Assembly (NCBI GenBank): GCA_902386135.1
Contig: CABMIB010000100.1
Span: forward strand, 1 to 43,065
Direction: 5' to 3'
Length of the DNA stretch: 43,065 nt
Source of the DNA: an uncultured archaeon
GTDB taxonomy: Archaea > Halobacteriota > Methanosarcinia > Methanosarcinales > Methanoperedenaceae
Under the pieces are notes generated by a model. That model saw nothing but the letters and a program-made list of their open reading frames with translations. It did not search any database and had not been told where the DNA came from. Of this stretch, positions 24,725-42,810 are shown piece by piece; within the stretch, counting starts at the first letter, position 1; every line of letters begins with the position of its first letter. Made by a program: the position numbers and the translations under genes.

Positions 24725-25321
24725 TTACATACCACCTATATTCAGAGCCTTCCTTGTCATCTGGCTTACCGGGATCGAACATAAGAAGTACCAGAATAGC
24801 CAGTGCTGGAAAGGTCCGATTATATATGTATCTAATTTTTGTACCCCCCAGAAAGGGAAAACCATCACAGCGTTCGGGTTCTGGCTTATAACAAGGTACA
24901 CCCAGTAGAACAGAGGGATCGAGATGACGCTTATATACAGCATCGGTTTGAACTGCTGCTTGAACATTTCCATCTGGTCTGTCATCATTTCCGCCTGCTG
25001 CGCCTGCAGTTTTTTCATTTTCTGGGCATTGTTGGTCAACTGCGCCTGCCTGAACTCTTGCTGTATACTCTTCATTCTCTCCTGAACGCGCCTCATCAGC
25101 TCCCAGTCCATGGTATATTTCTGGATCAGCGAGGCATAAAGCCCTGTTATTGCAGCAAGAATGAATATTATTATATGAATCGGAAGAACCGACAGAAGAG
25201 GATTTAAAACAACCCCCATGGCTTTGCCTATGAAGCCCCTTAAATTGGGGAATAACATGATGCTGAGCAGGAGGAATACTCCGAAGTATAATACTATTTT
25301 GCTTAAAGTTTTTTTAATCAT
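24725..25321 (-). CDS. DUF106 membrane insertase (EMC3/YidC-like)
   Basis: This 198-residue protein has three hydrophobic segments (about 10-28, 38-60 and 125-145) and a coiled-coil cytosolic loop rich in Gln, Lys and Met (RMKSIQQEFRQAQLTNNAQK, MKKLQAQQAEMMTDQMEMFK). That layout is the DUF106 family, distant relatives of YidC, Oxa1 and EMC3 that insert membrane proteins. ATG 25321 is used because it overlaps the adk stop; an upstream in-frame ATG at 25351 would run 38 bases into adk. Confidence 0.9.
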   Translation of the reverse strand: MIKKTLSKIVLYFGVFLLLSIMLFPNLRGFIGKAMGVVLNPLLSVLPIHIIIFILAAITGLYASLIQKYTMDWELMRRVQERMKSIQQEFRQAQLTNNAQKMKKLQAQQAEMMTDQMEMFKQQFKPMLYISVISIPLFYWVYLVISQNPNAVMVFPFWGVQKLDTYIIGPFQHWLFWYFLCSIPVSQMTRKALNIGGM

Positions 25322-25964
25322 ATTTCTCCAGTATTTTTTTGATTTCTTCAAATATCTCCGGGATGTCTTTTCCTCCGTCTACCGTCCGAAGAAGGCCTTT
25401 TCTGGTATAATACTCTATAAGAGGCTGTGTTTGTTTCTTATACACTATTAACCTGTTCCTTATCGCCTCAGGCTTGTCATCCTCGCGCTGGTATAATTTC
25501 CCTTTGCATTTGTCGCATATCTCGTCCTCTTCAGGAGGATTAAATATCATGTGATAGCTCATGCAGCATGATGAACATACCCTGCGCCCTGACAGGCGTT
25601 TAACCAATTCCTCGTCATCAACGTCGATGTTCAGCACCACATCCAGTTTTTTATTAGATTCGGTAAGGATCATCTGGAGTGCATCCGCCTGCGGCACTGT
25701 CCTGGGGTACCCATCCAGCAGGAACCCATTTGAACAATCCGGCTTTGACAGCCTGTCCCTTATGATCGTTATTAAAAGCTCATCCGGGACAAGTTCTCCT
25801 TTTGCCATATAGGATTTGGCCCTTACACCGAGAGATGTATTGTTACTTATATTTTCGCGCAGTATATCGCCTGTAGATATGTGGGGCAGTGAATAATGCT
25901 CCGCGATTTTCTTAGCCTGCGTGCCTTTTCCGGCCCCCGGGGGGCCGAGTAAAATGATGTTCAT
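25314..25964 (-). CDS. adk: Adenylate kinase, zinc-binding long form
   Basis: This 216-residue protein converts AMP and ATP into two ADP. The P-loop GPPGAGKGTQAKKI is at about residues 7-20, the AMP-binding region has STGDILREN and GYPRTVPQA, and the LID domain holds four cysteines in CSSC and CDKC that bind zinc. It is the bacterial-type long form, found in several Methanosarcinales. It heads the adk-DUF106-cmk-cbf5 operon, which in many archaea follows secY; here secY is absent and the iron operon lies upstream. Confidence 0.95.
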   Translation of the reverse strand: MNIILLGPPGAGKGTQAKKIAEHYSLPHISTGDILRENISNNTSLGVRAKSYMAKGELVPDELLITIIRDRLSKPDCSNGFLLDGYPRTVPQADALQMILTESNKKLDVVLNIDVDDEELVKRLSGRRVCSSCCMSYHMIFNPPEEDEICDKCKGKLYQREDDKPEAIRNRLIVYKKQTQPLIEYYTRKGLLRTVDGGKDIPEIFEEIKKILEKYD

Positions 25965-26134
25965 CTTAAATCCATCCCGTAATGGTGAAGTCTATATTAA
26001 AGCTTATTCAAAATTTCCGGTTATTTTAGGATGTGGCAAAAGCCGGAAAAGAATAGTATCGTTGACGGGATATAGGAGGAAACTATATGACGGCTTTTGC
26101 CTATTCATGGCTACGTCAACTGACGATATATACT

Positions 26135-26281
26135 TTACGGCTTTTTAACAGTGTTGGGAAACTCATATCCGCAGTTTGGGCACAGGAGCTGGCTGCATTT
26201 CATGAACCGCGGGCAAGCCCTGCAGCCTTCGTTATCTTTTGTATCAAACCTTGCTCCGCACAGGGGACATTGCGTCATCAT
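26135..26281 (-). CDS. Small zinc-ribbon protein of the feo operon
   Basis: The 48-residue product has seven cysteines: CPLC, then C-RAC, then C, and a final CPNCG pair, giving one or two zinc-binding knuckles. Its start overlaps the feoB stop by 4 bases (ATGA). Short Cys-rich proteins commonly accompany feoB in archaea and bacteria, and may regulate or support Fe(II) uptake. Possible roles are an assembly factor or an iron-sulphur or zinc sensor. Confidence 0.75.
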   Translation of the reverse strand: MMTQCPLCGARFDTKDNEGCRACPRFMKCSQLLCPNCGYEFPNTVKKP

Positions 26282-28284
26282 AATAACTGGAAGTATCCTA
26301 TAAACCTGTAAGCAATCCCGCCGACAATTATTGCCAGTGCGATTGTGAACGCCATGATGCCGCCCGCGCGCTTCCAGCCAAGCTCCCTGCCAAGCACGGC
26401 GATGGTAGCCACACACGGAATATATATGGTGTTCACAAGTGCGTAAACGAATAACTGCGCCGGTGTCATGAACAGCAGCAGGTTCTTTGCGCCTCCCCCG
26501 TAAGCCACTATCGCAAGCGTCACAAACAACTGGAGAGCCAGCTCTTTTCGAAGCACAGCGAATATAAGCGTAAGCCCTGCAACAGCGGGAAGCCCAAGCC
26601 ATCCTTCAACCACAGGCGAAAGAGGCGAGGAGAGCTTCCATAGGTAGCCTGTCTCGTACAGTGCGCCCAGGACAAGAGAACCTATAAGCACTATCGGGAA
26701 TGCCACGAACACGAAATCCTTGAACCTGTACCAGGTCTTCTTTATGATATTCGACATGAGGGGTGCCCTGAACGGGAACATCTCCATAACAAGCCCTGTG
26801 GAACTCCCTGGCATGACGTGATTCAGCCCGATGCCAACCAGGAATACAAGAGCCAGTACGATTATGTAAATAGCGACAGCAGGTTTCCAGCCGACGAATA
26901 ATGAGACCGCGCCAAGGATGACAGCAGTGCGTGCGCTGCACGGTATAAGCGTTATCAGAGTACTGGCTATTGTCCGCTCGCGCATGGTTGTAAGGACCCG
27001 CGTACCGATGATGGCGGGCACATTGCATCCGGCGCCAGCCACAAGCGGGATGATAGCGCGTCCGTGGAGCCCGAACTTGTGCATCAGCCTGTCGGTCAGG
27101 AATGCCACTGAGTTCAGGTATCCCGAATCCTCAAGAAATGCCAGCATGAAATAGAATGTAAGCACATACGGGATCCCAACAGCAAGCGCAGCCAGTATGC
27201 CCGCATCAAAACCCCATATCAGTATTTTGCCGATATGTCCTGCGCCGAAAATATAGAATATCACTCCATCGATCACCGGCGATATACAGGATGACCAGAG
27301 ATTGCTGAATGTCGTTGAGAGCAGGTTGCCGCCGTAGAACAGGAAAGCGAAAATGACCCCCAGGACACCGATAAGTAGAGGAATGCCTGTAAGCGGCGAA
27401 GTTGTATAATCCCAGAGCTTATCGGATGTTACCGGTGCCTCATCGCTCTGTACCTGCGAAGCAATGCTCCCCGCAAGTCCGTGCCTTTCACGGGCGATAC
27501 GCATCGGTGTTTTCTCACCGTGTTTTTTCTGTATATCCCTGCTTATCTTTTTTACTTCTTCAAGAATGGAGCGACTGTTTGTGTTTTTATTTACAAGTTC
27601 TATGAACTCGGTATCCTCTTCAAGCAGAAGTATTGCCAGTGCTCTCGGGTTAATCCCGAAGTCGTATAGTGAAATCATCTCTTCGACTTTCTTTATATCT
27701 GTTTCAATATCAGTCCCGTATTTCAGGTTGTATCTGATTTCAGATTTATTTCCTGCAACATCTACGGCCTTCTGTATCAGTTCGTCAAGACCCTGACCTG
27801 TCGTGGCGATGGTAGGCACCACAGGCACGCCGAGGAGCCTTGATAGTTCCGGTGCATCGATTATGATATTCCTTTTCTCTGCCTCGTCTATCAGGTTAAG
27901 AGCAACGACAAGAGGGATGCGCAGGTCTATGAACTGCAGCGTCATGTACAGGTTCCTTGCAAGGTTAGTAGCGTCAAGGATCATTATTGCAGCATCGGGG
28001 TTGCTATCAAGCACAGCCCTTCGCGCAACCCACTGGTCTTCGGATACCGCGCCGAGAGCATAACTTCCGGGCAGGTCGATTATGCCTATCCGCAGGTCTT
28101 TAAAATTTGTCGTTGCCATATTCAGTTCGACCGTTTTACCGGGATAATTGGCTGTCACGACACCCATGCCTGTCAGCCGGTTGAATATGCTGGACTTGCC
28201 CACGTTAGGATTGCCTGCAAGTACAAAAGTTAAATCCGTATTTCCTTTTATGTCTTTAAGAGCCCCGTGGCATGAAAGCATCAT
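26278..28284 (-). CDS. feoB: Ferrous iron transporter FeoB
   Basis: This 668-residue protein imports Fe(II) across the cell membrane. The N-terminal GTPase has G1 GNPNVGKSSIFN, G3 DLPGSYALGA and G4 NLIDEAEKR, followed by a helical GDI region. The membrane part carries two Gate domains (ALAVGIPYVLTFYFMLAFLE; VVEGWLGLPAVAGLTLIFAV) and about eight helices. ATG 28284 overlaps the dtxR stop (AATGATG); an in-frame ATG 60 bases upstream lies inside dtxR. FeoA is not separate: the regulator gene upstream ends in a FeoA-like domain. Confidence 0.95.
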   Translation of the reverse strand: MMLSCHGALKDIKGNTDLTFVLAGNPNVGKSSIFNRLTGMGVVTANYPGKTVELNMATTNFKDLRIGIIDLPGSYALGAVSEDQWVARRAVLDSNPDAAIMILDATNLARNLYMTLQFIDLRIPLVVALNLIDEAEKRNIIIDAPELSRLLGVPVVPTIATTGQGLDELIQKAVDVAGNKSEIRYNLKYGTDIETDIKKVEEMISLYDFGINPRALAILLLEEDTEFIELVNKNTNSRSILEEVKKISRDIQKKHGEKTPMRIARERHGLAGSIASQVQSDEAPVTSDKLWDYTTSPLTGIPLLIGVLGVIFAFLFYGGNLLSTTFSNLWSSCISPVIDGVIFYIFGAGHIGKILIWGFDAGILAALAVGIPYVLTFYFMLAFLEDSGYLNSVAFLTDRLMHKFGLHGRAIIPLVAGAGCNVPAIIGTRVLTTMRERTIASTLITLIPCSARTAVILGAVSLFVGWKPAVAIYIIVLALVFLVGIGLNHVMPGSSTGLVMEMFPFRAPLMSNIIKKTWYRFKDFVFVAFPIVLIGSLVLGALYETGYLWKLSSPLSPVVEGWLGLPAVAGLTLIFAVLRKELALQLFVTLAIVAYGGGAKNLLLFMTPAQLFVYALVNTIYIPCVATIAVLGRELGWKRAGGIMAFTIALAIIVGGIAYRFIGYFQLL

Positions 28285-28931
28285 TTCACCTTGATCTTCG
28301 AGGCGACCTCTCTTCCAAGTGCGTAACGCGAGCCGGAAACACATACGATGAGCGGTCCTCCGAAAGGTGCCACTTCTTCCACTCTTACGCAGACCCCGGG
28401 TATCAATCCGAGGGATGCAAGGTACTTAAGCATGTTGGGGTCTTCTTCAAAAACGTTGACGATAACTCCCTTGCCTGATGCTTTTAATTCCGAAAGCGGC
28501 CTGACTTTTTCTTTAACCAGTACGCCATCCTTATCAGGGATAGGATGCCCGTGCGGGCAGGTCTTGGGGTTCCCGAGGCTCTCTGCGATACGGTCTTCCA
28601 TCTCCGGACTTATCGCGTGCTCAAGCCTGCACGCCTCTTCATGCACCTCGTCCCATTTGAAACCCAGTATATCAGTAAGCAGGCGCTCGGAAAGGCGGTG
28701 CCTTCGTATGACCTTTTTGGCTATGGATTTGCCCTCCTCGGTCAGGCACACCCCTTTTTCCGTATGCGAAAGCAGACCTTTACCCTCGAGTTTTTTTACC
28801 ATCTCGGAAACAGACGGGGCAGAGAGTTTCAGATGCTCAGCCAGACTTGATGTGGTTACGGGGCGATGCTCCTGCTGGAGTTTATAGATCGATTCGAGAT
28901 ACTCTTCAGTTCTTGGAGTATCAGCTTCCAT
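28281..28931 (-). CDS. DtxR/MntR-family metal-dependent repressor with FeoA-like domain
   Basis: This 216-residue regulator has an N-terminal winged helix (TPRTEEYLESIYKLQQEHRP, then VTTSSLAEHLKLSAPSVSEM), a metal-binding dimerisation domain (HRLSERLL, EACRLEHAIS, CPHGHPIP), and a C-terminal SH3/FeoA-like domain (about 140-216). With iron or manganese bound such proteins repress uptake genes. It overlaps ftr1 by 11 bases and feoB by 4. The palindrome upstream of ftr1 is the probable operator, giving feedback control of the whole operon. Confidence 0.93.
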   Translation of the reverse strand: MEADTPRTEEYLESIYKLQQEHRPVTTSSLAEHLKLSAPSVSEMVKKLEGKGLLSHTEKGVCLTEEGKSIAKKVIRRHRLSERLLTDILGFKWDEVHEEACRLEHAISPEMEDRIAESLGNPKTCPHGHPIPDKDGVLVKEKVRPLSELKASGKGVIVNVFEEDPNMLKYLASLGLIPGVCVRVEEVAPFGGPLIVCVSGSRYALGREVASKIKVK

Positions 28932-29766
28932 ATGTTTTCACCTCCCCGGCTTTTGACGCCGCTGTTACTCTGTAAGTCCTGTATACGAAAAATCCTGTAA
29001 CCAGCCAGTAGCCGATGTAAGCGAGCACTTCAGTTAGCGAGGGGCTTGCATCGAAGCCGAACAGTGATTTAAGACCGCCCCCGATGGGGTTCCCTTCCTG
29101 AAGGGAAGGATATTTGTTTAAGTCCCAGACATGCTCCACCACAGGAGGTACGACTCCTGCCTCGTTGAGTGCATGTATGCCTGTTGCTATTAAACCTGCC
29201 GAGAACAGTACCAGTAATATACTTGTATATTTGAAGAACCTGCCCACATCCATGCGGTGTATCCCTTTGAACATAACGAACGACAGGAATACTACGGCAA
29301 CGACCCCTAGTATGAAACCGAGCAGCGTGTCCAGCGGGGAAGTTATTGCCAGCGTGCCAAGGAAAAGTACGGTCTCTACGCCTTCCCTGAACACCGATAT
29401 GAATGAAAGTGCCGCAATTCCCAGCATCTGGCCTTCCGATATGGAAACATCGATCTTTTCCTGGAGTTCCCCTTTTATCTTCTTTGAGTTCGATGCCATC
29501 CAGAAAATCATGTACGTAAGGACAACAGCAGCGATAAATGCTGCTGAAGCCTCGAACAACTGTTCTGCCGTGCTCTCAAACTCCCCGTATATGAGCTTAA
29601 ATAAGAGAGCCACGCCCGTACTTGCAACCACTGCGCCGATGGTTCCCATATAGAGGTAGCGGTACAGGTCTTTGCGCCCCATCTTAGCCAGATAGGCCGC
29701 GATTATTCCTATTATCAGGGCTGCTTCAAGAGCTTCCCTGAACGTTATTAAAAAGCTTGCTAACAT
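28921..29766 (-). CDS. FTR1-family iron permease
   Basis: This 281-residue membrane protein has seven predicted helices and the two glutamate motifs of the Ftr1/EfeU family, REALEA (about residues 10-15) and REGVE (about 128-132), which bind iron in transit. Known members carry ferric iron, often with a partner oxidase. No oxidase gene is adjacent; the outer loop between helices 6 and 7 is long. It is the first gene of the ftr1-dtxR-feoB-zinc-ribbon operon, pairing an Fe(III) route with an Fe(II) route. Confidence 0.92.
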   Translation of the reverse strand: MLASFLITFREALEAALIIGIIAAYLAKMGRKDLYRYLYMGTIGAVVASTGVALLFKLIYGEFESTAEQLFEASAAFIAAVVLTYMIFWMASNSKKIKGELQEKIDVSISEGQMLGIAALSFISVFREGVETVLFLGTLAITSPLDTLLGFILGVVAVVFLSFVMFKGIHRMDVGRFFKYTSILLVLFSAGLIATGIHALNEAGVVPPVVEHVWDLNKYPSLQEGNPIGGGLKSLFGFDASPSLTEVLAYIGYWLVTGFFVYRTYRVTAASKAGEVKTYGS

Positions 29767-29783
29767 GTTTTTTCCTTCATTGA

Positions 29784-29838
29784 TTAGGTATACCTAACTG
29801 TAATATTTTGTATACCTATATACTTTTCTGGTATCCTA
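29784..29838 (-). promoter_or_regulatory. Iron operon promoter with DtxR-type palindrome
   Basis: TTAGGTATACCTAA (29784-29797) is a perfect 14-bp palindrome. Related half-sites, TGTATACCTA (about 29809-29818) and GGTATCCTAA (about 29831-29840), follow. On the minus strand a TATA box (AAAGTATATAGG, about 29814-29825) would place transcription start on or near the palindrome, so a bound regulator would block it. Confidence 0.7.
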
Positions 29839-29946
29839 ATAAAATAATTAGGCTGATATAAATCATGGCGAGGAGTATGATTTTTAACTCTGAACATTAA
29901 GGTTGCGGTAAAGATTTAAAACCTGAGGTTCACTTACGGAAAATAT

Positions 29947-30909
29947 ATGAATATTGGAAAATTAAGGCTGGATGGAACTCTTGTTCTTGCCCCCATGTCC
30001 CTTGTGACGAACCTGCCGTTCAGGCTGCTGTGCAAGAAATACGGGGCAGCGCTTGTATACTCGGAGATGACCTTCTCCGAAGCGATCCTGCGGCAAAACG
30101 AGACGAGCATAGCAAGAGGTTTTACATGCGCCGAAGAGAGACCTCTGGGAATCCAGTTGCTGGGCGGAAACGCCGATTCGATAGTCCGCTCGGCTCGTAT
30201 CGTAACTAAAATATTCAGGCCTGAGATTATAGATATAAACCTTGGCTGCCCGGCCCAGAACGTTATCAAAAATGAGTGCGGTGCAGCGCTTTTAAAGAAG
30301 CCGGAAACAGTCATGGAAATAGTAGAGGCGCTTTCCGGCTCTCTGGAAGTCCCGGTCACCGCAAAAATGAGAGTCCTGAATAGCTTTGAGGAGACGCTGA
30401 AGCTCGCGCGGTTGATCGAAAAAGCAGGCGCTGATGCACTCATAGTTCACGGGAGGACACAAAAGCAGCAGTATTCAGGGAAATCCAACTATGAATCTAT
30501 TAAAAATATAAAGAGAGAGCTTTCTATCCCTGTAATTGCCAACGGGGATATCATTGATGAAAAAACTGCCAAGTACGTGCTTGAATATACGCAATGCGAC
30601 GGGCTTATGATAGGCAGGGCTGCGATGGGCAACCCACATATTTTCAGGAGGCTTGGACATTACCTGGATACAGGGGAACTATTGCCTCCCCAGACGCTGA
30701 GTGAACGGCTGGATGATTTTTTTGAATATGCAGGGCTATGCCGTAAGTATGGATTACTTGGGTTCAGGGATATAGTCGTAAAAGCCCAGTGGTTCACAAA
30801 AGGCATGAAAAATGTAAAACCTGTGCGAGTGAAGATAAACAGGATGACTGACATAGATTCGGTATTGAGGGTCATGGAGGGACTGAGGGCTGATGCCGCG
30901 GGAGACTGA
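29947..30909 (+). CDS. dus: tRNA-dihydrouridine synthase
   Basis: This 320-residue TIM-barrel flavoprotein reduces uridine to dihydrouridine in tRNA. Visible motifs are LVLAPMSLVTNLPFRLLC at the FMN-binding start, GIQLLGG, the catalytic INLGCPAQNVIKNECGAALL with its Cys, a KMRVL strand, VHGRTQKQQYSG, and ANGDI plus GLMIGRAAMGNP for phosphate binding. It is transcribed away from the iron operon, with a ~180-base shared upstream region. Confidence 0.93.
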   Translation: MNIGKLRLDGTLVLAPMSLVTNLPFRLLCKKYGAALVYSEMTFSEAILRQNETSIARGFTCAEERPLGIQLLGGNADSIVRSARIVTKIFRPEIIDINLGCPAQNVIKNECGAALLKKPETVMEIVEALSGSLEVPVTAKMRVLNSFEETLKLARLIEKAGADALIVHGRTQKQQYSGKSNYESIKNIKRELSIPVIANGDIIDEKTAKYVLEYTQCDGLMIGRAAMGNPHIFRRLGHYLDTGELLPPQTLSERLDDFFEYAGLCRKYGLLGFRDIVVKAQWFTKGMKNVKPVRVKINRMTDIDSVLRVMEGLRADAAGD

Positions 30910-30965
30910 TAGAATTGGCTATCCTACCATAACTTTAATACATCAACCTCCTATTCCAAACCCAT

Positions 30966-32681
30966 ATGTACGGCTGGACAGGGAAAACCGTAACAATAGA
31001 TTTATCAGACGATAAAATCACTAAAACCGAAAGCGATACCAGTTTGCTCCGTGCCTTTATCGGTGGAAGGGGGCTGGGTGTAAAGCTTTATTACGATGCC
31101 ATAAACCCGAATATCGACCAACTGAGCCCGGAAAACATCATAATATTCGCAACAGGTCCTCTCACAGGGACGGCAGCCCCGATGTCGGGCAGGCACGCGA
31201 TGGTATCGAAATCCCCGCTTACAGGCACGATGTTCGATTCAAGCAGCGGCGGGTTTTTCGGAAAAGAATTAAAGTTCGCAGGGATTGATGCGCTCATAAT
31301 AAAAGGCGCGGCAGAACAGCCGGTTTACATTTCCATGCAGAATGATGATATAGAGATACATCCTGCAAACGGTTTGTGGGGAGAGAACATCAGGTCATGT
31401 ACGGACAAGCTCTCATCGAAAGGACGCGTGGCTTGCATCGGGCGTGCAGGAGAACGGCTTGTCCCAATCGCCAGCGTCATGAATGATTATTTCCATGCCT
31501 GTGGGCGCGGGGGGCTGGGTGCTGTCATGGGTTCAAAGAAGCTTAAGGCGGTCGTGGTAAAAGGAGATAAAAAACCTGCGATCGCAGATGAAAATGGTTT
31601 TAAAAAAGCGTGCCGTGAGGCGCTGCATCTTATAAAAGCGGGACCCGCAGCTTCAAAAGGATTGAGTACATATGGGACGTCTTCGGCTTTGAACCTTATG
31701 AACTATACGAAAATCCTGCCTGTAAAGAATTTCCGCCAAAAGGGGTTCAACCGCGCAGATAAAGTTTCAGGCGAATTTATCAAAGAAAATTACGATATTA
31801 AGTCTCACACCTGTTATAACTGCGTTATCGCATGCAAGCACATCATAAAGAGCGGGATGTTCGAGGGTCATGAGGTGCCCGAATACGAGACACTGTGGGC
31901 TTATGGTCCTGATAGCAACAATGCGGATATGGACACGATCATCAAGGTAAACCGCCTCTGTAACGATTACGGCATCGATACAATCTCATCAGGCTCTACG
32001 CTCGCGGCTTATGCTGAAATAATGGGTGAGGATATCGATGAATTACTCGCGCTTGTTAAAAAGATAGGTGAGAGTGAGGGCATCGGAAAGGAACTGGGCA
32101 GAGGGTCAAAGGCTCTTGCGCACTCGCGCGGGAAAGATGCTGCGATACACGTGAAAGGGCTTGAGCTTCCAGGATACGACCCGCGAGGTGTCCTGGGGAT
32201 GGCTCTTGCTTACGCCACCTCGAACCGCGGGGGCTGTCATCTCCGCGCCTATATGATCGCGCCGGAAATCCTGGGCAAGCCCAAAAAAGTAGACCCCCTT
32301 ACTTTTTCAGGGAAAGCAGAGCTTGTTCAGGTATTCCAGAATGGGAAGGCTGCTCTTGACTCACTGGTGCTGTGCACGTTCGCATCTTTCGCTATGTCTG
32401 AGAGAGAGTTCGCAGATATGTTAAGCGCTGCAACAGGCGTGGATTATTCCGTAGAGGAGTTTTTGAAATGCGGGGAAAGGATATGGAACCTTGAGAGATT
32501 ATTCAATATCGGGGCAGGATTTACGCGAAAGGACGATACGCTTCCAGAGAGGTTCTTCGGGGGCGGCGGTATTAACAGGGCAGAGTTTGAAAAGGCACTG
32601 GATGAATACTATCATTTCAGGGGCTGGAGTGATGAAGGGGTGCCGGCTGAGGAGAAGCTGAGGGAGCTTGGTTTATTGTAG
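30966..32681 (+). CDS. aor: Tungsten-containing aldehyde:ferredoxin oxidoreductase
   Basis: This 571-residue enzyme oxidises aldehydes to carboxylic acids with ferredoxin as acceptor, in the cytoplasm. It begins in the family style (GWTGKTVTIDLSDDKI) and has GGRGLGVKLYYD, GPLTGTAAPMSGRH and RGGLGAVMGSKKLKAVVVKG for the bis-tungstopterin. The [4Fe-4S] cluster ligands are C283, C286 and C290 (CYNCVIAC) plus C470 (LVLC). The ATG has no Shine-Dalgarno sequence and lies about 25 bases after an AT-rich TATA-like stretch, so the transcript is probably leaderless. The substrate subtype cannot be told from sequence alone. Confidence 0.93.
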   Translation: MYGWTGKTVTIDLSDDKITKTESDTSLLRAFIGGRGLGVKLYYDAINPNIDQLSPENIIIFATGPLTGTAAPMSGRHAMVSKSPLTGTMFDSSSGGFFGKELKFAGIDALIIKGAAEQPVYISMQNDDIEIHPANGLWGENIRSCTDKLSSKGRVACIGRAGERLVPIASVMNDYFHACGRGGLGAVMGSKKLKAVVVKGDKKPAIADENGFKKACREALHLIKAGPAASKGLSTYGTSSALNLMNYTKILPVKNFRQKGFNRADKVSGEFIKENYDIKSHTCYNCVIACKHIIKSGMFEGHEVPEYETLWAYGPDSNNADMDTIIKVNRLCNDYGIDTISSGSTLAAYAEIMGEDIDELLALVKKIGESEGIGKELGRGSKALAHSRGKDAAIHVKGLELPGYDPRGVLGMALAYATSNRGGCHLRAYMIAPEILGKPKKVDPLTFSGKAELVQVFQNGKAALDSLVLCTFASFAMSEREFADMLSAATGVDYSVEEFLKCGERIWNLERLFNIGAGFTRKDDTLPERFFGGGGINRAEFEKALDEYYHFRGWSDEGVPAEEKLRELGLL

Positions 32682-32718
32682 CGGTTCTTTCGAGTATAAA
32701 TTGTCATTTAACTAAGAG

Positions 32719-34194
32719 TCAGTATGGAACTTGATAAATTACTGGGTAGAATCTTAACACATCCAACTTATCTGCGACTATAAATTTTAGTTTGCCCATT
32801 AAATTCACAATTGTATTTGGAGAGAGTGCGATTTCTGTATCACTGTTTTTGAGACTCAGAGAATGAGCTGTCTGGTTGATGATTGCATCCTTGAATATGC
32901 CATATGTGTCCGAACTCTTGATCTGCGTCACAGAGGTTGAGACTGCCCATGTGTATCTTAGCTGCACCATATCGCTTGTCGCACCTGCGAACACGCTGTC
33001 CACATAGGTTACGAACAGCGGTACATCGGTCTCACCTGCAATACTCTTCTCAGTATAGGTATATATTGGTTTGGCACCGGATGTACCGGATGAGACGACT
33101 TTAGCGTCTTTCTTTATTCCATCCTTGCTCAGGGTAAGCAAGACCTGCCTTGGTGTTGCCTTGGCATCTATACGGCTGGCTGTTATTGCCCAACCACAAC
33201 CTACATCCCAAGTCTCACCGACTTGCAAGGTCTTCTTCTCAGATGCTGCTGTTCCCTGCTCAATTATCAGCTTAGCCAGCTTATCGACTTTGCCGTTAAG
33301 AGCGATGTATGGCTCTCCCTGCCAACCGATGATGTAGTAGTTACCGCCATTGAATGCCTGTCCTGCGCCAGTTCTCTCCAAGCCTGCTGCGGCAGCATCT
33401 GCGCAACTATTGTTATACTGCTCTGAAACAACCTTTAACTTTTTAGCCTGTGCTTCTGTGGTATAAGACAGTTTATCTATGCCGATTGTCCTCTCTTTTG
33501 CTCCCAAGCTTGGTTGAAGTAATTTCAATGACTCTTTGCCCAGATCATCATCAATATCGTAAAAAAATCCATCAAAATTCTGAACATCCCAAATATAGAA
33601 TGGGAGATCTGGCGAACCGATTTGTGGAAGTTTCCTTTCATCATAAACTCTAGGCAACGTGGTTTTTACTATATTTGCCTGTGAATGTATGATACTAATA
33701 CCTTTGACTCCAACCTTTGGTATTTTTACAGTAGATTGTTTAGACTTTTGGGATATAATGGTCGCAATTTCCTCTGCGATTTTAACCATTTCGGCATCAA
33801 TCTGGTATTTATTCCCATGAGAAATAGGTATGCCATCTTTGGGACGAAGATTCATTTGAGTAAGCCATTTAACTTGTCTCCAGGGACAATGTTTGATAAT
33901 GATTGGAAATATGTGAAGACCTTCCCTTTCTTGGCGTTCCAATAAACGAGGCACTTCTTTGCTACGGATGAACTCTGAAGTAAGAAAATCAACAGAAACT
34001 AGCAATATAGCTACGCTAGCTACATCCATAGCTTTCTGAATTTCCCGGTCCAACTCCTCGCCAGCGACAATATGCTGGTCGTACCATATATCGAGAATAT
34101 TTTCCCGTTGAAGTACCTCTAGGTGCTTAACAAGCCTATCTTTACAATCTTCATCGTTATGGCTGTAGCTGATGAAAACTATAGGCTTTGTTAT
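32719..34194 (-). CDS. TIR domain fused to an S-layer domain, probable ATA start
   Basis: The 491-residue reading frame joins two unrelated parts. Residues 1-150 are a TIR domain (TKPIVFISYSHNDED, IWYDQHIVAGEEL, SVAILLVSVDFLTSEF, candidate catalytic E80 in SKEVPRLLER, then HIFPIIIKHCPW). Residues about 197-491 are a methanosarcinal S-layer domain (FYIWDVQNFDGFFYDIDDDL, NGGNYYIIGWQGEPYIAL, then LKFIVADKLDVLRFYPVIY). There is no signal peptide or membrane helix, so it is probably cytoplasmic. The frame has no ATG: TTG at 34053 would delete the first third of the TIR domain. ATA at 34194 lies 7 bases after GGAGG and aligns with the usual MTKP start of such TIR proteins, so it is either a rare start codon or a mutated ATG. 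The S-layer part could be a sensor or decoy; that is inference. Confidence 0.8.
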   Translation of the reverse strand: MTKPIVFISYSHNDEDCKDRLVKHLEVLQRENILDIWYDQHIVAGEELDREIQKAMDVASVAILLVSVDFLTSEFIRSKEVPRLLERQEREGLHIFPIIIKHCPWRQVKWLTQMNLRPKDGIPISHGNKYQIDAEMVKIAEEIATIISQKSKQSTVKIPKVGVKGISIIHSQANIVKTTLPRVYDERKLPQIGSPDLPFYIWDVQNFDGFFYDIDDDLGKESLKLLQPSLGAKERTIGIDKLSYTTEAQAKKLKVVSEQYNNSCADAAAAGLERTGAGQAFNGGNYYIIGWQGEPYIALNGKVDKLAKLIIEQGTAASEKKTLQVGETWDVGCGWAITASRIDAKATPRQVLLTLSKDGIKKDAKVVSSGTSGAKPIYTYTEKSIAGETDVPLFVTYVDSVFAGATSDMVQLRYTWAVSTSVTQIKSSDTYGIFKDAIINQTAHSLSLKNSDTEIALSPNTIVNLMGKLKFIVADKLDVLRFYPVIYQVPY

Positions 34195-34371
34195 AGCATT
34201 ACCTCCAATATATTGCAGAGATTATTCAAATTTGAAATTGTCGACATATAACAAATATTTTTATACCTAATACCATATATGCATAAATACTCTCTCCTGC
34301 CCAAAAACGAGTCATTATGCACAAATGCAGTAAACTACTCAAGGCTTTACTCTAAGTAGTTTACAAATTCA

Positions 34372-34983
34372 CTATTTGACCGGAAAGTCGGTGTCATAAA
34401 CGTTCACCCCTGTTTCCTTCATCCACGCCTCGACGATGCCGATATCATCGGTGTTGAGCCTGAAATCGTTGAAGAAGCCGGGGGCGACGCTTCCAGGGTC
34501 GTCGTACATATAGCCGTAATTGAATTCACTTATAATGGATGGAGCCATCGGGTCAATAATGTAATAATAGACGCCTTTAATTCTAATCTTTGGAAATGTG
34601 CTGTTTCCACCCTGTTTTACCGGGATTGCAATCGAGGTATTGAGTTTATCAGGATTTCCGAAAACTATCTTCGGTTCGAATCCAATGGTTTTTTTTAAGT
34701 GATACCATAACAAAGTGGTTGTCCTGGGTCGGTTTAACTGTACCGCAAGTCTATTCCATCCCTTCGAGTTAAGCATGTCCAGTTCATTGGATACTCTCTC
34801 TATCGTTGTTCTCGGGATATTTTCAACCGGTGCCGATGTCATCAGTTTTTGATCATCTGGTGCTGCGGTAGCCGGTTTATCCTGGATGCATCCGCTCATT
34901 AAAACAGTTGCAGTTAAAACCAGTATCGCAACGACTGCTTCTATTGCGGATTTTTTCATTTTTCCGGATACCCTTGCTTCCAT
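34372..34983 (-). CDS. Secreted lipoprotein, unknown function, 203 aa
   Basis: The N terminus has a signal peptide (KMKKSAIEAVVAILVLTA) and a lipobox-like LMSGC (Cys at about residue 32), so the mature protein is probably lipid-anchored outside the cell. A Pro/Ala-rich linker leads to a ~150-residue domain with no recognised family (GWNRLAVQLNRPRTTTLLWY; GVYYYIIDPMAPS). ATG 34983 has GAGGT six bases upstream. It lies in its own unit between the TIR-S-layer gene and the beta-propeller gene. Confidence 0.75.
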   Translation of the reverse strand: MEARVSGKMKKSAIEAVVAILVLTATVLMSGCIQDKPATAAPDDQKLMTSAPVENIPRTTIERVSNELDMLNSKGWNRLAVQLNRPRTTTLLWYHLKKTIGFEPKIVFGNPDKLNTSIAIPVKQGGNSTFPKIRIKGVYYYIIDPMAPSIISEFNYGYMYDDPGSVAPGFFNDFRLNTDDIGIVEAWMKETGVNVYDTDFPVK

Positions 34984-35347
34984 ACTTCGACCTCTATGGA
35001 AATGCCGCTTGCCTTATAGCGGTTCCGTTAGAATATAGACATAACTTGCTAAGTATAAATATCTGTTGAAATTATAGGTCACCAGTTAATCATCATGAGT
35101 TGTTTTTAAAACTCCTAAAAGGTTTTTATCAAATCAAAATGCCATTTCGCTGCCTGAAACAGATATAAAGCAATTTTGAGAAAAATAAGGCATGTCAGGG
35201 CTCTAAATAGAAAACGGGGATACTTTTATTACCCACAGTAATTGTTAGACAATCTCTGACTAATCCCTGAAGCTCCAAATAACGGACACTGCATAAAACA
35301 GTTAAGTTTATACATCAAAATGCTATGTAAAGTTTAGGTGGACATAA
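34984..35347. other. Intergenic region between divergent secreted-protein genes
   Basis: This 364-base AT-rich gap carries the divergent promoters of the lipoprotein and the beta-propeller gene. GTTAAGTTTATACATC at about 35300 is a possible TATA region for the rightward gene. I see no gene or repeat in it. Confidence 0.5.
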
Positions 35348-36580
35348 ATGAGAGCGGTTATCTATTTGCTGTTAATGGTCATGCTGGTTACACCGGCGCT
35401 GGCTTCTGACTGGAACATGTTTAAGAAAGATGCATCACACTCGGGATTTACCATAGATACGATTAATCCTCCGCTCACCCTGAAATGGTCTTCAAATCTC
35501 GGATATAGTACTGATTCATCTCCGGTTGTTGTAGACGGCATTTTATATATTGGCTCAAGTTATGGAATACATGCGATTGATGCCGTATCCGGAAAAGAGA
35601 TATGGAAATACCAGACCAATGGTTTTGTCAGAGCAGTTCCTGCGGTCGTAGATGGGGTATTGTACGTTGGACCGAATGATAAACGATTCTACGCCATCAA
35701 TGCGAAAGATGGCAGTGTAAAATGGATTTACACAGACTCTTCAGATGGATATCTATCTTCTCCGGCTATAGTTGATAACCTGGCTTATGTGGGATCCAAA
35801 GATACTAACCTTTATGCGATCAATATCCTGACCGGTAAAGCTTCGTGGTCGAAAGCCACAGCCAGCAGCGTTGATTCTTCTCCTGCTGTTTCAGAAGGAA
35901 CCGTTTATGCAGGTAATAGGAACGGTGTGCTCATCGCCTTTGATACAGTGAACGGGAAAGAGAAATGGCGTTACGATACAGGAACGGAGATCAAATCCTC
36001 GCCAGCTATTGAAAATGGAATTGTCTTTATCGGTTCGAATAATGGGGTGGTCTATGCCCTGACAACAGATAAAGGCACTCTGAAATGGAAGTTTTCTACA
36101 GGAAATAATGTCGAGCCGTCGCCTTCCGTAAAGGACGGCACAGTGTATGTCGGCTCAAAAGACTCTAATTTTTATGCAATCGACTCCGGGACAGGGAAAC
36201 TGAAATGGAAATTCCCTACTTCGGGCATTGTTACTTCATCGGCTGCCATTTCAAATAATATCGTTTATTTCGGGTCGGCGAACAATGTAATCTATGGCAT
36301 TGATGCAAATACAGGACAACTCCTCTGGAGAAACTCAACCGGAGAAAAGGACGGCGATTCTGTAACATCCCCTGCCATCTCTGGAAATATGCTGTACGCT
36401 GCGACCCACAATGGGATCGTGTATGCATACTCTTCCAATGCGCAGACGCCGCAGAAAACTGCTGAGACAGCAGCCACATCAACCCCGGGTTCAGCCGGAA
36501 CACCAAAGTCACCGGGATTTGAATATGCGGCAATTGCCCTGATGGTTGCGTTCCTGATCAGAAAGAGAGCTGCCCCTTAA
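35348..36580 (+). CDS. PQQ-like beta-propeller surface protein with PGF-CTERM-like tail
   Basis: This 410-residue protein has a signal peptide (about 1-19) and about eight repeats of a PQQ-like blade: each has a YAIDAxxGKxxWKY-like stretch and a SSPAVxxGxVYVGS-like stretch (for example TVYVGSKDSNFYAIDSGTG and VYALTTDKGTLKWKF). A Thr/Pro/Ser linker precedes SPGFEYAAIALMVAFLIRKR, a PGF-CTERM-like signal in which an archaeosortase would cut and anchor the protein. Such propellers on archaeal surfaces often bind other proteins; true PQQ use is not implied. The start has GGTGG six bases upstream. Confidence 0.88.
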   Translation: MRAVIYLLLMVMLVTPALASDWNMFKKDASHSGFTIDTINPPLTLKWSSNLGYSTDSSPVVVDGILYIGSSYGIHAIDAVSGKEIWKYQTNGFVRAVPAVVDGVLYVGPNDKRFYAINAKDGSVKWIYTDSSDGYLSSPAIVDNLAYVGSKDTNLYAINILTGKASWSKATASSVDSSPAVSEGTVYAGNRNGVLIAFDTVNGKEKWRYDTGTEIKSSPAIENGIVFIGSNNGVVYALTTDKGTLKWKFSTGNNVEPSPSVKDGTVYVGSKDSNFYAIDSGTGKLKWKFPTSGIVTSSAAISNNIVYFGSANNVIYGIDANTGQLLWRNSTGEKDGDSVTSPAISGNMLYAATHNGIVYAYSSNAQTPQKTAETAATSTPGSAGTPKSPGFEYAAIALMVAFLIRKRAAP

Positions 36581-36637
36581 ATTTAGTGTAACACCGTCAA
36601 AGGTTGCAGGATACTTTTGGCTGTTAACCATGGTGGG

Positions 36638-36886
36638 ATGCAAAACTACTTAAGTTCAAAAACAAATCCTCCTTTAATGTCATTCAATACGGAGCTGTAT
36701 GAGGGGATGTTGCAGGAGCCGCTCGCGTGGATATGGGTGAAGTTAATTATATTATTAGCATTCTTTTTGATAATGCCATATCTATATGTGAAATTCGTTG
36801 AGTGGCGACTTAAAAGTTTCCTGGGGAAAATATGGCAGAGAGTATCTTTCGAATTTAGCAGGAAATTCCAGTGGATGTGGCTGTAG
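36638..36886 (+). CDS. Small membrane protein, putative, 82 aa
   Basis: This ORF holds one clear membrane helix (WIWVKLIILLAFFLIMPYLY) followed by a basic amphipathic tail (KFVEWRLKSFLGKIWQRVSF). No ribosome binding site is convincing; starts at TTG 36617, ATG 36638 or ATG 36677 are all possible. It lies 57 bases after the beta-propeller gene in the same direction. The composition is protein-like, so it is kept at moderate confidence. Confidence 0.45.
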   Translation: MQNYLSSKTNPPLMSFNTELYEGMLQEPLAWIWVKLIILLAFFLIMPYLYVKFVEWRLKSFLGKIWQRVSFEFSRKFQWMWL

Positions 36887-37042
36887 ATATCAGGAGTTTT
36901 AATTTTTAGTATCACCTGACGAAACCATAGCCGAAAACTTTTTATCGAACCACAAACATGAAACAACAAAAACACAGGCAGGCTTTGACCTTATAACAGG
37001 AATAAGCATAACTGATCTTATTTATACCAGGAGGTAAAATTC

Positions 37043-38832: not shown

Positions 38833-41800
38833 GTGAGAAACTTATGGGGAGTCTTGGAATCAGATGTTTCACTGGCTAAATATAGTAAATTTTGTGCAAT
38901 ACTTACATTTATCCTGCTATCAGGGGTAGCGGCAGCCTCCCCGTTTGCAGTACCAGCCATTGGAAATCCGCAGATAAACCTCACCACCAACAGGCTCGTT
39001 ATTCTGGATGACCCAAGTGGATGGGATGGCGGGAATGCGACTATACCAATTACAGATAGGGGGAACCAGTGGTCCGGGGAAAGCACTACAATCAGGTGGT
39101 ATGCGCTCCTGATCAATTCATCGGGCAGAGCAGCCCGGAATATAACTGTAACAAGCCAGCTTCTTTTTCCAAACGGCACAGTTGCCCTGGAAAAAACAGG
39201 CATCACTAACAGCTTCGGCATAGCAGCCTTCGACCAGGATATGGACAGGTGGTTGCGCTTTAACGGCAGCGCAAGTGAGGGGATGTACACAATAAACTCC
39301 AGCGCAACCGTAGATAATACCTCTGTAGCTGGAAGCTATAATTTTATCTACGACGAGTGGGGCTGCGGTTCAAGCGGCAGTGGCTGCCATAAATCCCAGT
39401 ACTGGCAGGGAGGCTTTATGGATTCCCAGATTGCCAGCACGTTTGCAACCGGGAGTATCCAGAATTCCCCTTACCTGCATGCATGGGATAACTTCCATAA
39501 TATCTCCAGCCATGGTTTCGGCGGAGGTTTTATCGGAAACGGAGAATGTCTTACATGCCACCGCGGCTATGACAGTATATACCGCAACCATAGCAGCAGA
39601 GTGCAGGCGACATCCCAATACCCGGCAGGAGTCCATAATGGTAAAGTACCCTGCACAGGCTGCCACGCGGCTTTTAACAGCGGCACAATGCCAATCCGCC
39701 AATGCTACGACTGCCATCCTCTGAAGAACAACAATCTCACCATAAAAACTTTCACCCAGGCAGCATCAAGCGGCTTCTCATACCAGCCGTTGACGGATAC
39801 GAACATAACTGCGCACAATGCAGGCATGAATATACCCTGCATCATATGCCATAACGGCATGCATAATGTATCCAAGCCCTACAATGCTGCTGATACCTCC
39901 AACACATTCACAGAATACCAGCAGTGCACCGCATGTCACAGTGCTCGTAAAAGACACAACGACAGTGTAAGCTGCACGGTCTGCCATTCTCAGGACGCCC
40001 ATGCGATCAAGGTATTTGCGCAGAACGCTACATATATACAGGGTGTTGAGAGTGGGGACAGGGGCAACTGCACCAGTTGCCACCAGAACTCTTCTTTCCT
40101 AAGCACGCTACTTTCGCAGCCGAAGGCTGGTTCTCATACAGGGAGCGCCCCGCAGGTTCCAGATCCACTCAACCACAGCAATGACCCGATTGCAGGGATG
40201 AAATGGAACCAGACACCCGGCTACTGGATGAACGGAACTAATGGAAGCGCCCGGCTTTCATCGTGCAAGTATTGCCACGGCGATACCCTGCATAAGACCG
40301 CCGCTCTGGGCAGACCATCACTGTGGGAAGGCAATAATACCGTGAACTCAACCCTTGATGGTACCTCCTGGTGCGCCTCATGTCACTGGCAGGGCTACGC
40401 CAGAGGCGCAAATACCTACAATGACACGGTAAGTACCTTCACGGGAGATAACTTATCAGTACCACCTGAAATAACAGGAAACGCCACTTATGGCGCAAAC
40501 CAGAGTGCTCCTGCGTATTTCAATCACAGTAATATTACCAAGGACGATGTCACATGCAAAGGCTGCCACGGACGCCTGGCAACTGGTGTGAGCATAACAG
40601 GGTTCATGCATAATGTTGCCGTGGGTTCAGCAGCCGGGGGCCCTGACTGCGCGCTGTGCCATGATATAAACGGGATAGCACCAAAGAGAATAAATTTTTC
40701 AGCGTTCAAAGAGGGTGTGCACAGGAACCTCAATAGTGCTGCAACGAACAACACAACGCTTTCAGAGATAGTGGATAAAGCCTGCTGGGCATGCCACGGT
40801 GAGGGTAATGAGCCGGCAGGACACCCATCAAGATACAAAACCCCGCGCAGGTGCAGCAATAACGACTGCCATTCCCTTAACCAATCTTTCAAGGCGCCCA
40901 TGGTTTATTCTCATTTCGAGGATGCAGCCCTTAACGGCAATCCCGATAACACTACGAATTTCAATATTTCCACAAAAGCCCCATGCGAAACATGCCATTC
41001 CAATAGCTTAATTGAAGTGGGTGAAAACCTCAACGCATCCGTTTCCCATTATGCCTCTACCGGAGATTTGATAGGCTCTAGGAATTGCATCTACTGCCAT
41101 CTCGACAAGGACAACTCAGAAAAATGGGGGAACGCCACCGAGATAAATAAAAACAGGACATCCATGACCGAACTTGATAAGCTGAATAATAAATTCACAG
41201 CCCGCGAAGGGGAGTTCACGGAACTCGGCATGGGATACAGGATAAAGGTCACGGGAATATCAACCAAGCGGGGCAGCGCAGATATGGAGTTGTATAAGGC
41301 GGATACACTGGTGGATAAAGGACTTGTGAATATCGGAGAATACGTATATGAAGAGTATCGCATAGTGGATAATGCAACTACCAGGATCCCTGTGATCAAG
41401 CTCAATATCACGGGAATGTTCGCTTCTGACAATGAAAGCTTTATACAGTTCGACGGCACCAGGATAAAAAGGCTGCATTACGAGAACAAGACCACCTCCT
41501 GCTACCTGTGCCATTTCAACGGCGATGCCATGAGGCGCAAATACACGGTAATAGACAGGAGAGACGATAACCTATTTTATACTGAGGTATTCTTTAACTC
41601 TTCTGACAGGAATGAGTTCTACCAGGAACAGGCTCTCCAGCTCCTGGCTAACATGACACCTGCCGATGCGCATAGCGATATAGATAGAAGCAGAAGGATG
41701 ACGTTAAGAGAGGGGGATAAATGGGAGCTCGCCGGGAATTACAGCCTTACTCTTGAGGACATATCCAATAAAAGCGCATCAGCCAGGTTCTTGCTGCAGG

Positions 41801-42810
41801 CTGGCGGCAATTATACGGAGATCGTGGAGCGCGGGAATACGTTCGTGTATGAACCAGATATAGAGCTGGGAATCGAGCATAAGAACATGACCTTATTCAG
41901 GGCTAAAGTGGCTGAAATACAGGAGGGAACGCCTGGCATCGTGGTCCTGGAGGATATCCTTGCCCTCTCGCCAGATATAAAAGAAATAAAAGATAACACC
42001 ACCATTTCGGGATATAACACAAGCTGGCTGTGGGAAAATCATACGTTCCTGACAGGAAGGATTCCAACCAATATGCATGTGCCGCTGCTGCAGCAGGGCA
42101 GGGACGGCGGCCCGGATTGCGTTTCCTGCCACAACGTAGGTGATCTGGGAGCGCATACCGGCGTTAACTTTGAAGCTGCAAGCAATGTCGCCGCTGTTAA
42201 TAAACCCTGCTGGGCATGCCACGGGACCGGGCAGCAGCCAAGATGGCACCCTGCGACCTACAGGGAACCCAGGGATTGCAAATCCTGCCATGTAGAGCAG
42301 CAGGTGCCTTTTTTCAATGCAACGTACATAGGGGACGAAAAGCACGCCAATCAAACGAATTGCAGGTCATGTCATATATCGAATACCCATAAGTTACTGC
42401 GGTTCGATGTGGTGCCGGCAGTAAAGGACCTGTCATTATCCAGAAAAGAGGTCGTTGCAGGAGAAAAGATAACAATCAATGCTACGGCCATAGCTGGATA
42501 CCTGATGAGGGTCAGGGCTGCCGAGTATTATATCGACTCACCCGCAAGAGTATTTCCCATGGCTGCAACGGACGGCTCTTTCGATGACCAGACAGAAGAG
42601 ATCACGGCCACACTGGATACCTCCGGACTTGCGCCGGGGAACCATACGGCCTATGTCAGGGCTATGGAGAGGAACAATAAATGGGGTACTGAGGAGGCTA
42701 TCACTTTTGTGGTGCAGGGTACAGGGGGAGAATCCAGGGCAGCCGTGTTACCTGCTCTTGCTGTTTCGTTATTTTTAGCAGTGGTTATTTTCAGAATGAG
42801 AAGAGGTTAA
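38833..42810 (+). CDS. Giant extracellular multiheme c-type cytochrome
   Basis: This 1325-residue protein starts with GTG behind a GGGGAGCGG site and has a signal/anchor segment (FCAILTFILLSGVAAASPFA, about residues 20-39). I count 19 CxxCH haem motifs plus a CX4CH (CSNNDCH) and a CX6CH (CGSSGSGCH), so up to 21 haems. Haems fall in two groups, separated by a ~330-residue haem-poor stretch with two segments resembling S-layer domain halves (EFTELGMGYRIKVTGIS; KWELAGNYSLTLEDIS). A C-terminal beta-sandwich-like domain and a membrane helix (AVLPALAVSLFLAVVIF) follow. Many NxT/NxS sites suggest glycosylation. Proteins of this type in ANME-2 archaea are thought to carry electrons through the S-layer to external acceptors. 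Confidence 0.93.
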   Translation: MRNLWGVLESDVSLAKYSKFCAILTFILLSGVAAASPFAVPAIGNPQINLTTNRLVILDDPSGWDGGNATIPITDRGNQWSGESTTIRWYALLINSSGRAARNITVTSQLLFPNGTVALEKTGITNSFGIAAFDQDMDRWLRFNGSASEGMYTINSSATVDNTSVAGSYNFIYDEWGCGSSGSGCHKSQYWQGGFMDSQIASTFATGSIQNSPYLHAWDNFHNISSHGFGGGFIGNGECLTCHRGYDSIYRNHSSRVQATSQYPAGVHNGKVPCTGCHAAFNSGTMPIRQCYDCHPLKNNNLTIKTFTQAASSGFSYQPLTDTNITAHNAGMNIPCIICHNGMHNVSKPYNAADTSNTFTEYQQCTACHSARKRHNDSVSCTVCHSQDAHAIKVFAQNATYIQGVESGDRGNCTSCHQNSSFLSTLLSQPKAGSHTGSAPQVPDPLNHSNDPIAGMKWNQTPGYWMNGTNGSARLSSCKYCHGDTLHKTAALGRPSLWEGNNTVNSTLDGTSWCASCHWQGYARGANTYNDTVSTFTGDNLSVPPEITGNATYGANQSAPAYFNHSNITKDDVTCKGCHGRLATGVSITGFMHNVAVGSAAGGPDCALCHDINGIAPKRINFSAFKEGVHRNLNSAATNNTTLSEIVDKACWACHGEGNEPAGHPSRYKTPRRCSNNDCHSLNQSFKAPMVYSHFEDAALNGNPDNTTNFNISTKAPCETCHSNSLIEVGENLNASVSHYASTGDLIGSRNCIYCHLDKDNSEKWGNATEINKNRTSMTELDKLNNKFTAREGEFTELGMGYRIKVTGISTKRGSADMELYKADTLVDKGLVNIGEYVYEEYRIVDNATTRIPVIKLNITGMFASDNESFIQFDGTRIKRLHYENKTTSCYLCHFNGDAMRRKYTVIDRRDDNLFYTEVFFNSSDRNEFYQEQALQLLANMTPADAHSDIDRSRRMTLREGDKWELAGNYSLTLEDISNKSASARFLLQAGGNYTEIVERGNTFVYEPDIELGIEHKNMTLFRAKVAEIQEGTPGIVVLEDILALSPDIKEIKDNTTISGYNTSWLWENHTFLTGRIPTNMHVPLLQQGRDGGPDCVSCHNVGDLGAHTGVNFEAASNVAAVNKPCWACHGTGQQPRWHPATYREPRDCKSCHVEQQVPFFNATYIGDEKHANQTNCRSCHISNTHKLLRFDVVPAVKDLSLSRKEVVAGEKITINATAIAGYLMRVRAAEYYIDSPARVFPMAATDGSFDDQTEEITATLDTSGLAPGNHTAYVRAMERNNKWGTEEAITFVVQGTGGESRAAVLPALAVSLFLAVVIFRMRRG

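Follow-up and report, generated by a model that had tools for sequence, protein, structure and literature searches.

Receptors of the TIR-NACHT and TIR-STAND-TPR types, represented among the genomes compared here by proteins on G004:C38, G029:C96 and G004:C69, have a cytoplasmic N-terminal TIR domain followed by a regulatory or sensor half. SpbK, a TIR NADase, is a smaller protein with one TIR domain and one binding domain, a four-helix bundle on the N side; it is triggered by the phage portal protein YonE and clusters on the portal, and activation by clustering has been proposed for it (PMC12847820). Thoeris ThsB is activated with the major capsid protein (PMC12578639). The S-layer proteins of the Methanosarcinales, such as MA0829 (DUF1608, PF07752), are secreted, with a signal peptide, two tandem domains, a stalk and an anchor. 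In haloarchaea, S-layer proteins serve as virus receptors (PMC9973310). The Borgs of Methanoperedens are reported to encode PF07752 proteins, which, their describers suggest, could be mimics of host proteins (PMC9879509), and Borgs and hosts each encode numerous S-layer proteins (PMC11208441). An earlier note on the DNA analysed here knew of no described defence protein pairing the two folds, and the literature searched likewise yields no description of a protein in which TIR and S-layer domains are fused.

Such a pairing is encoded in the window (the whole stretch of 43,065 nt that was analysed), which is contig C100 of a 3.24-Mb genome (G000) of Methanoperedens, a methane-eating archaeon. 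The features discussed below are:

32719..34194, minus strand: TIR-S-layer fusion gene; with the ATA at 34194-34192 as its start it would have 491 codons before the stop
33880..34179, minus strand: TIR_2 domain with putative catalytic Glu79 (profile match and alignment)
33598..33879, minus strand: linker of about 94 residues, predicted with low confidence save for a helix modelled at residues 128-152
32770..33597, minus strand: single complete S-layer domain (PF07752/DUF1608), with 16 codons between it and the stop
34192..34194, minus strand: ATA at the expected start position, from DNA comparison with related TIR genes
34201..34206, minus strand: GGAGGT, a Shine-Dalgarno-like sequence, 6 nt before the ATA
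32699..34372, no strand: variable segment of 1.67 kb, present in the window and missing at the syntenic locus of the sister genome G002

The open frame, 500 codons on the minus strand, begins at 34221 and has its stop at 32719. The earlier note had read it as a TIR domain fused to one complete S-layer unit, and Pfam bears this out: TIR_2 (PF13676) matches residues 5-104 with 46.8 bits (cut-off 28), and S-layer (PF07752) matches residues 199-474 with 157.8 bits (cut-off 30), over profile positions 10-259 of 259. No other family was found in the scan, and P-loop NTPase and TPR are absent; the protein shares the arrangement of the TIR-NACHT and TIR-STAND-TPR receptors, but with an S-layer domain as its second half. 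This half matches the MA0829 DUF1608 crystal structure by sequence (E 2.7e-21). Structure prediction, which the note had proposed as a check, gave an AlphaFold2 model with pLDDT near 90 across most of the S-layer half, and a fold search with it again finds MA0829 DUF1608 (3u2g, E 9.5e-22). The model of the TIR half is of low confidence, its alignment being shallow; its best fold matches include BcThsB, BtTir and PdTIR. Glu79 (codon 33957-33955, minus strand) aligns with the Glu region of BtTir and of the TIR-NACHT relatives and is the putative catalytic residue, so that the domain may, judging from alignment, be catalytically competent.

While the S-layer half has the same complete fold and the same profile coverage as in MA0829-type proteins, it sits behind a TIR domain and lacks the parts that go with export. 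Neither a signal peptide nor a membrane segment was found in the fusion, as the note had also stated: over the first 60 residues, the 19-residue Kyte-Doolittle mean peaks at about 0, whereas the signal peptide in a host S-layer protein reaches 2.9. There is no second tandem domain, stalk or C-terminal membrane anchor, the stop falling 16 residues past the PF07752 match, where the secreted relatives of the domain run on into stalk and anchor. Loss of N-glycosylation sequons was considered as a mark of cytoplasmic life; the counts (2 in the window domain, 0 in that of the second fusion described below) are suggestive, yet inside the spread of secreted domains (mean 3.8, standard deviation 2.0). 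Single-domain S-layer open reading frames of the family were also considered as further cytoplasmic fusions; wherever the ends could be read, they proved to be secreted proteins of the ordinary kind.

The earlier note had not mentioned that the window copy has a non-canonical start codon. Upstream of the TIR domain, no ATG, GTG or TTG opens the frame. The start region reads GGAGGT-AATGCT-ATA-ACA-AAG-CCT, and related TIR genes have GTG-ACA-AAA-CCT, ATG-AGC-AAG-CCT or ATG-ACG-CAG-CCA at the same point. ATA is a rare start codon, and a weak one at best. In the window it is a genuine weak start, a sequencing error or a sign of early decay, and the copy may be weakly expressed or decaying; functional claims for this copy are limited accordingly.

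Among other described systems, SpbK offers a likeness in size and plan, being likewise a small two-domain protein, although the binding domain of the fusion is an S-layer domain on the C side. Thoeris provides the best PADLOC match of the window TIR, to a ThsB model (107 bits), which covers the TIR half only; the same model matches the TIR-STAND protein encoded elsewhere in the window (116 bits). An S-layer domain is not among the described features of ThsB proteins. As to the TIR-SAVED proteins of CBASS, the fusion has no SAVED domain, and the PADLOC SAVED-TIR models match TIR residues 5-99 only.

A search of 34 genomes of the family for the same fusion, which the note had suggested, gave one other full-length match, on contig C35 of the Methanoperedens genome G006; homologues are therefore not always separate genes, the outcome that the note had named as counting against it. 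This protein (P0005) has 454 residues, an ATG start, TIR_2 and S-layer matches of 78 and 189 bits and a stop at the domain end; Pfam finds TIR and S-layer only, without a P-loop NTPase. Both fusions end with the S-layer domain, and both are without signal peptide and anchor.

The two are not close relatives. Their TIR domains are 24% identical and of different subtypes: that of the window is closest to TIR-NACHT/STAND-TPR proteins (54-58% identical), and that of G006 is 80% identical to the TIR of a TIR-NACHT protein in G004. The S-layer domains of the two fusions are nested, in a tree of 75 such domains, in separate clades of secreted S-layer proteins, and common descent of the fusions, as a joint clade, was rejected (p-AU 1.7e-5). 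The G006 gene also lies at another locus, in a variable segment (L065:4686-8000) that is missing in the sister genome G004, with flanks 92% identical. Since TIR subtype, S-layer clade and locus all differ, the G006 protein is not an orthologue of the window fusion, and the architecture arose at least twice, independently. In the same contig (L065:9763-11484) there is an AAA ATPase and TOPRIM-like (DUF4276) gene pair matching HEC-01 defence models, which G004 has too.

At the window locus, G002 is collinear with positions 25247-36901 at 86-95% nucleotide identity, but has no fusion gene: there, fewer than a dozen bases (L268 6193/6184, within 10) separate the points that correspond to 32698 and 34373 of the window. 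The G002 genome has zero TIR_2 matches. No terminal repeats or target duplications were seen at the variable segment, so insertion of a mobile element is unproven, and the sister species may equally well have lost the segment. Judged from these alignments, both fusions are present or absent between sister species, gained or lost in the manner of a defence gene. Going by a reading of their sequences, the genes that flank the window fusion are aldehyde ferredoxin oxidoreductase-like and lipoprotein-like, and a thermosome-like gene lies farther out; neither a ThsA-type effector nor another defence gene was found next to it.

Upstream of the G006 fusion, on the same strand, are genes for a SLATT (DUF4231) two-helix membrane protein (L065:6545-6970) and for an endonuclease/exonuclease/phosphatase. 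An adjoining membrane effector gene recalls Thoeris, but a ThsA-type partner is absent. A homologue of this SLATT protein in G008, 85% identical, is encoded directly upstream of two tandem TIR genes (L291 on G008:C68, 431-3175), whose products have related C-terminal halves without a Pfam match. More SLATT-TIR clusters occur in G029, where one TIR is of ThsB type, and in G028; taken with the G008 arrangement, they suggest that the G006 fusion fills the slot of an exchangeable TIR sensor beside a conserved membrane effector. The G029 cluster (L293 on G029:C34, 1789-4558) is dense, with the ThsB-type TIR gene, two further TIR genes and a SLATT gene on each strand, and is a possible Thoeris-like TIR-SLATT system. 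The window genome has no match to the G006 SLATT protein.

The fused S-layer domains are 61-64% identical to secreted Methanoperedens S-layer proteins. That of the window shares 72-73% identity across 86 residues with a fragment of a secreted S-layer protein from its own genome (C66), and is 71-75% identical to the secreted S-layer of G002. The G006 domain shares a clade with the secreted two-domain S-layer protein of G006, but is 60% identical to this protein and 64% to those of other species. Strict mimicry of the own host was considered and not upheld: the window is undecisive (72% own, 71% sister) and G006 gives no support. As own-genome and other-species identities are similar, the donor can be named as the lineage's coat type, and not demonstrably as the host's own gene. 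There are 28 PF07752 matches in the window genome. Two secreted S-layer genes in it, at the ends of contigs C66 (L205) and C39 (L206), are 96% identical in nucleotide sequence over their shared part and are cut where the contigs stop; the assembly did not yield the 5′ part of this coat gene.

Both fusion frames are without internal stops, their domains are complete, and changes are in excess at third positions. Branch dN/dS was estimated from sequence trios: the S-layer domain of the window has 0.16-0.25 and that of G006 has 0.10-0.23. In several comparisons dS approaches saturation, and each branch may in part be older than the fusion, so the values are indications, not proof, of purifying selection on both domains.

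The architecture is rare: 2 of the 67 TIR_2 matches in the 34 family genomes bear an S-layer domain, as far as frames were examined. No third full-length fusion was found among the 8 candidates scored per genome in 186 genomes of the order, or the 4 scored per genome in 393 genomes of the phylum, a depth of search that rare divergent fusions could escape.

The fusion is real and recurrent, and we infer that it is a variant of the TIR immune receptors with an S-layer sensor. A defence role in which the S-layer half acts as sensor or decoy, with the TIR as effector, was the earlier note's proposal; it is the best supported reading, because the TIR domains are closest to those of TIR-NACHT/STAND receptors and a SLATT gene adjoins the G006 fusion. 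That the protein is an immune receptor which senses through its S-layer domain seems to us about as likely as not.

Under this sensor reading, the sensor half of a TIR-NACHT-type receptor would have been replaced by one S-layer domain from the coat family of the host lineage, to serve inside the cytoplasm as bait or as co-assembly trigger. A virus or Borg-like element would make a coat-binding, coat-processing or co-assembling protein in the cytoplasm; candidates are a receptor-binding protein, a virion protein or an element-encoded S-layer protein. This would gather several TIR-S-layer molecules through their S-layer domains, and the clustered TIRs might cleave NAD+ or synthesize an ADP-ribose signal; signal or NAD+ loss would then stop the cell, in G006 perhaps with the SLATT two-helix membrane protein as effector. 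That the ligand is a parasite's S-layer-binding protein rather than an S-layer subunit can be suggested only tentatively. Co-assembly as the trigger is plausible, since Borgs are reported to have PF07752 proteins (PMC9879509). The earlier note had thought of viral mimics of the coat; the collections searched lend this no support, as relatives of PF07752 were found neither in two viral scans, IMG/VR included, nor by tblastn in phage and plasmid collections; these sets may or may not contain Borg genomes.

In plants, some NLR immune receptors carry integrated decoys, pieces of parasite-targeted host proteins that have been fused to the receptor repeatedly and independently. The fusions described here may be alike in both respects; they differ in being archaeal and without an NTPase, and in that their decoy role is conjectural. 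S-layer domains self-assemble. It is conceivable, if somewhat doubtful, that archaea have repeatedly built integrated-decoy receptors by placing a domain of their own coat in the cytoplasm behind a TIR enzyme, with coat self-assembly as the clustering switch. If the sensor reading is true, these proteins would be a prokaryotic counterpart of the plant decoys, with the archaeal coat as bait: an invading element would be betrayed by the very protein that it uses for coat binding or mimicry, and there would be a lead on how Methanoperedens recognises viruses or Borgs. As two independent origins exist, the question is directly testable with small soluble proteins.

Self-assembly could also be put to another use, in a sensor of coat assembly or secretion stress: the S-layer domain would co-assemble with unexported S-layer precursors, and TIR clustering would shut the cell down. 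Export failure, or an element flooding the cytoplasm with S-layer protein, would be the trigger, and binding of a virus protein would not be needed. The fused domains are indeed of the host lineage's coat type, activation of TIRs through clustering is established (PMC12847820), and S-layer proteins are numerous in Borgs and hosts alike (PMC11208441). Presence or absence between sister species and the SLATT neighbour fit a dispensable defence gene better, however, and the G006 domain is not specially near its own host's protein; we regard this explanation as unlikely.

Chance domain shuffling without a selected function was the alternative named in the earlier note. Abundant, recombining S-layer genes would have become joined to TIR genes, the window copy now decaying; its ATA start, the rarity of the fusion and the many S-layer copies in the window genome would all be expected. 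Against this stand two independent in-frame fusions, each with a complete domain, a stop at its end and no internal stops, the third-position excess and low dN/dS (0.10-0.25) in both, and the normal start and SLATT neighbour of the G006 copy, and we think shuffling alone rather improbable. Least credible, to the point of being very improbable, is an artefact of assembly or binning where the TIR and S-layer parts join (33600-33880), a misassembly that the note had also considered. S-layer genes do break the G000 assembly elsewhere, at the ends of C66 and C39; but both flanks of the fusion are syntenic with G002, which is without exactly the fusion segment, and an independent genome, G006, shows this architecture elsewhere, at another locus. 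The window S-layer domain and the coat fragment of the same genome are no more than 73% identical, so that the domain is a sequence in its own right and cannot be a piece of that gene joined in error.

The window holds other genes related to those discussed here. A second TIR protein of 871 residues (11166-13781, minus strand) combines TIR with a STAND-type NTPase and matches PDC-S60, a candidate defence model of PADLOC, with 224 bits. Around it, between 2653 and 21325, are ArdC-like, two ParA-like, relaxase-like and TraG/TraD-type T4SS coupling genes, which give the left half of the window the look of an integrated conjugative element bearing the TIR-STAND gene. At the other end (38833-42810, plus strand), a multihaem cytochrome of 1325 residues has C-terminal S-layer domain fragments, making it an S-layer-cytochrome fusion.
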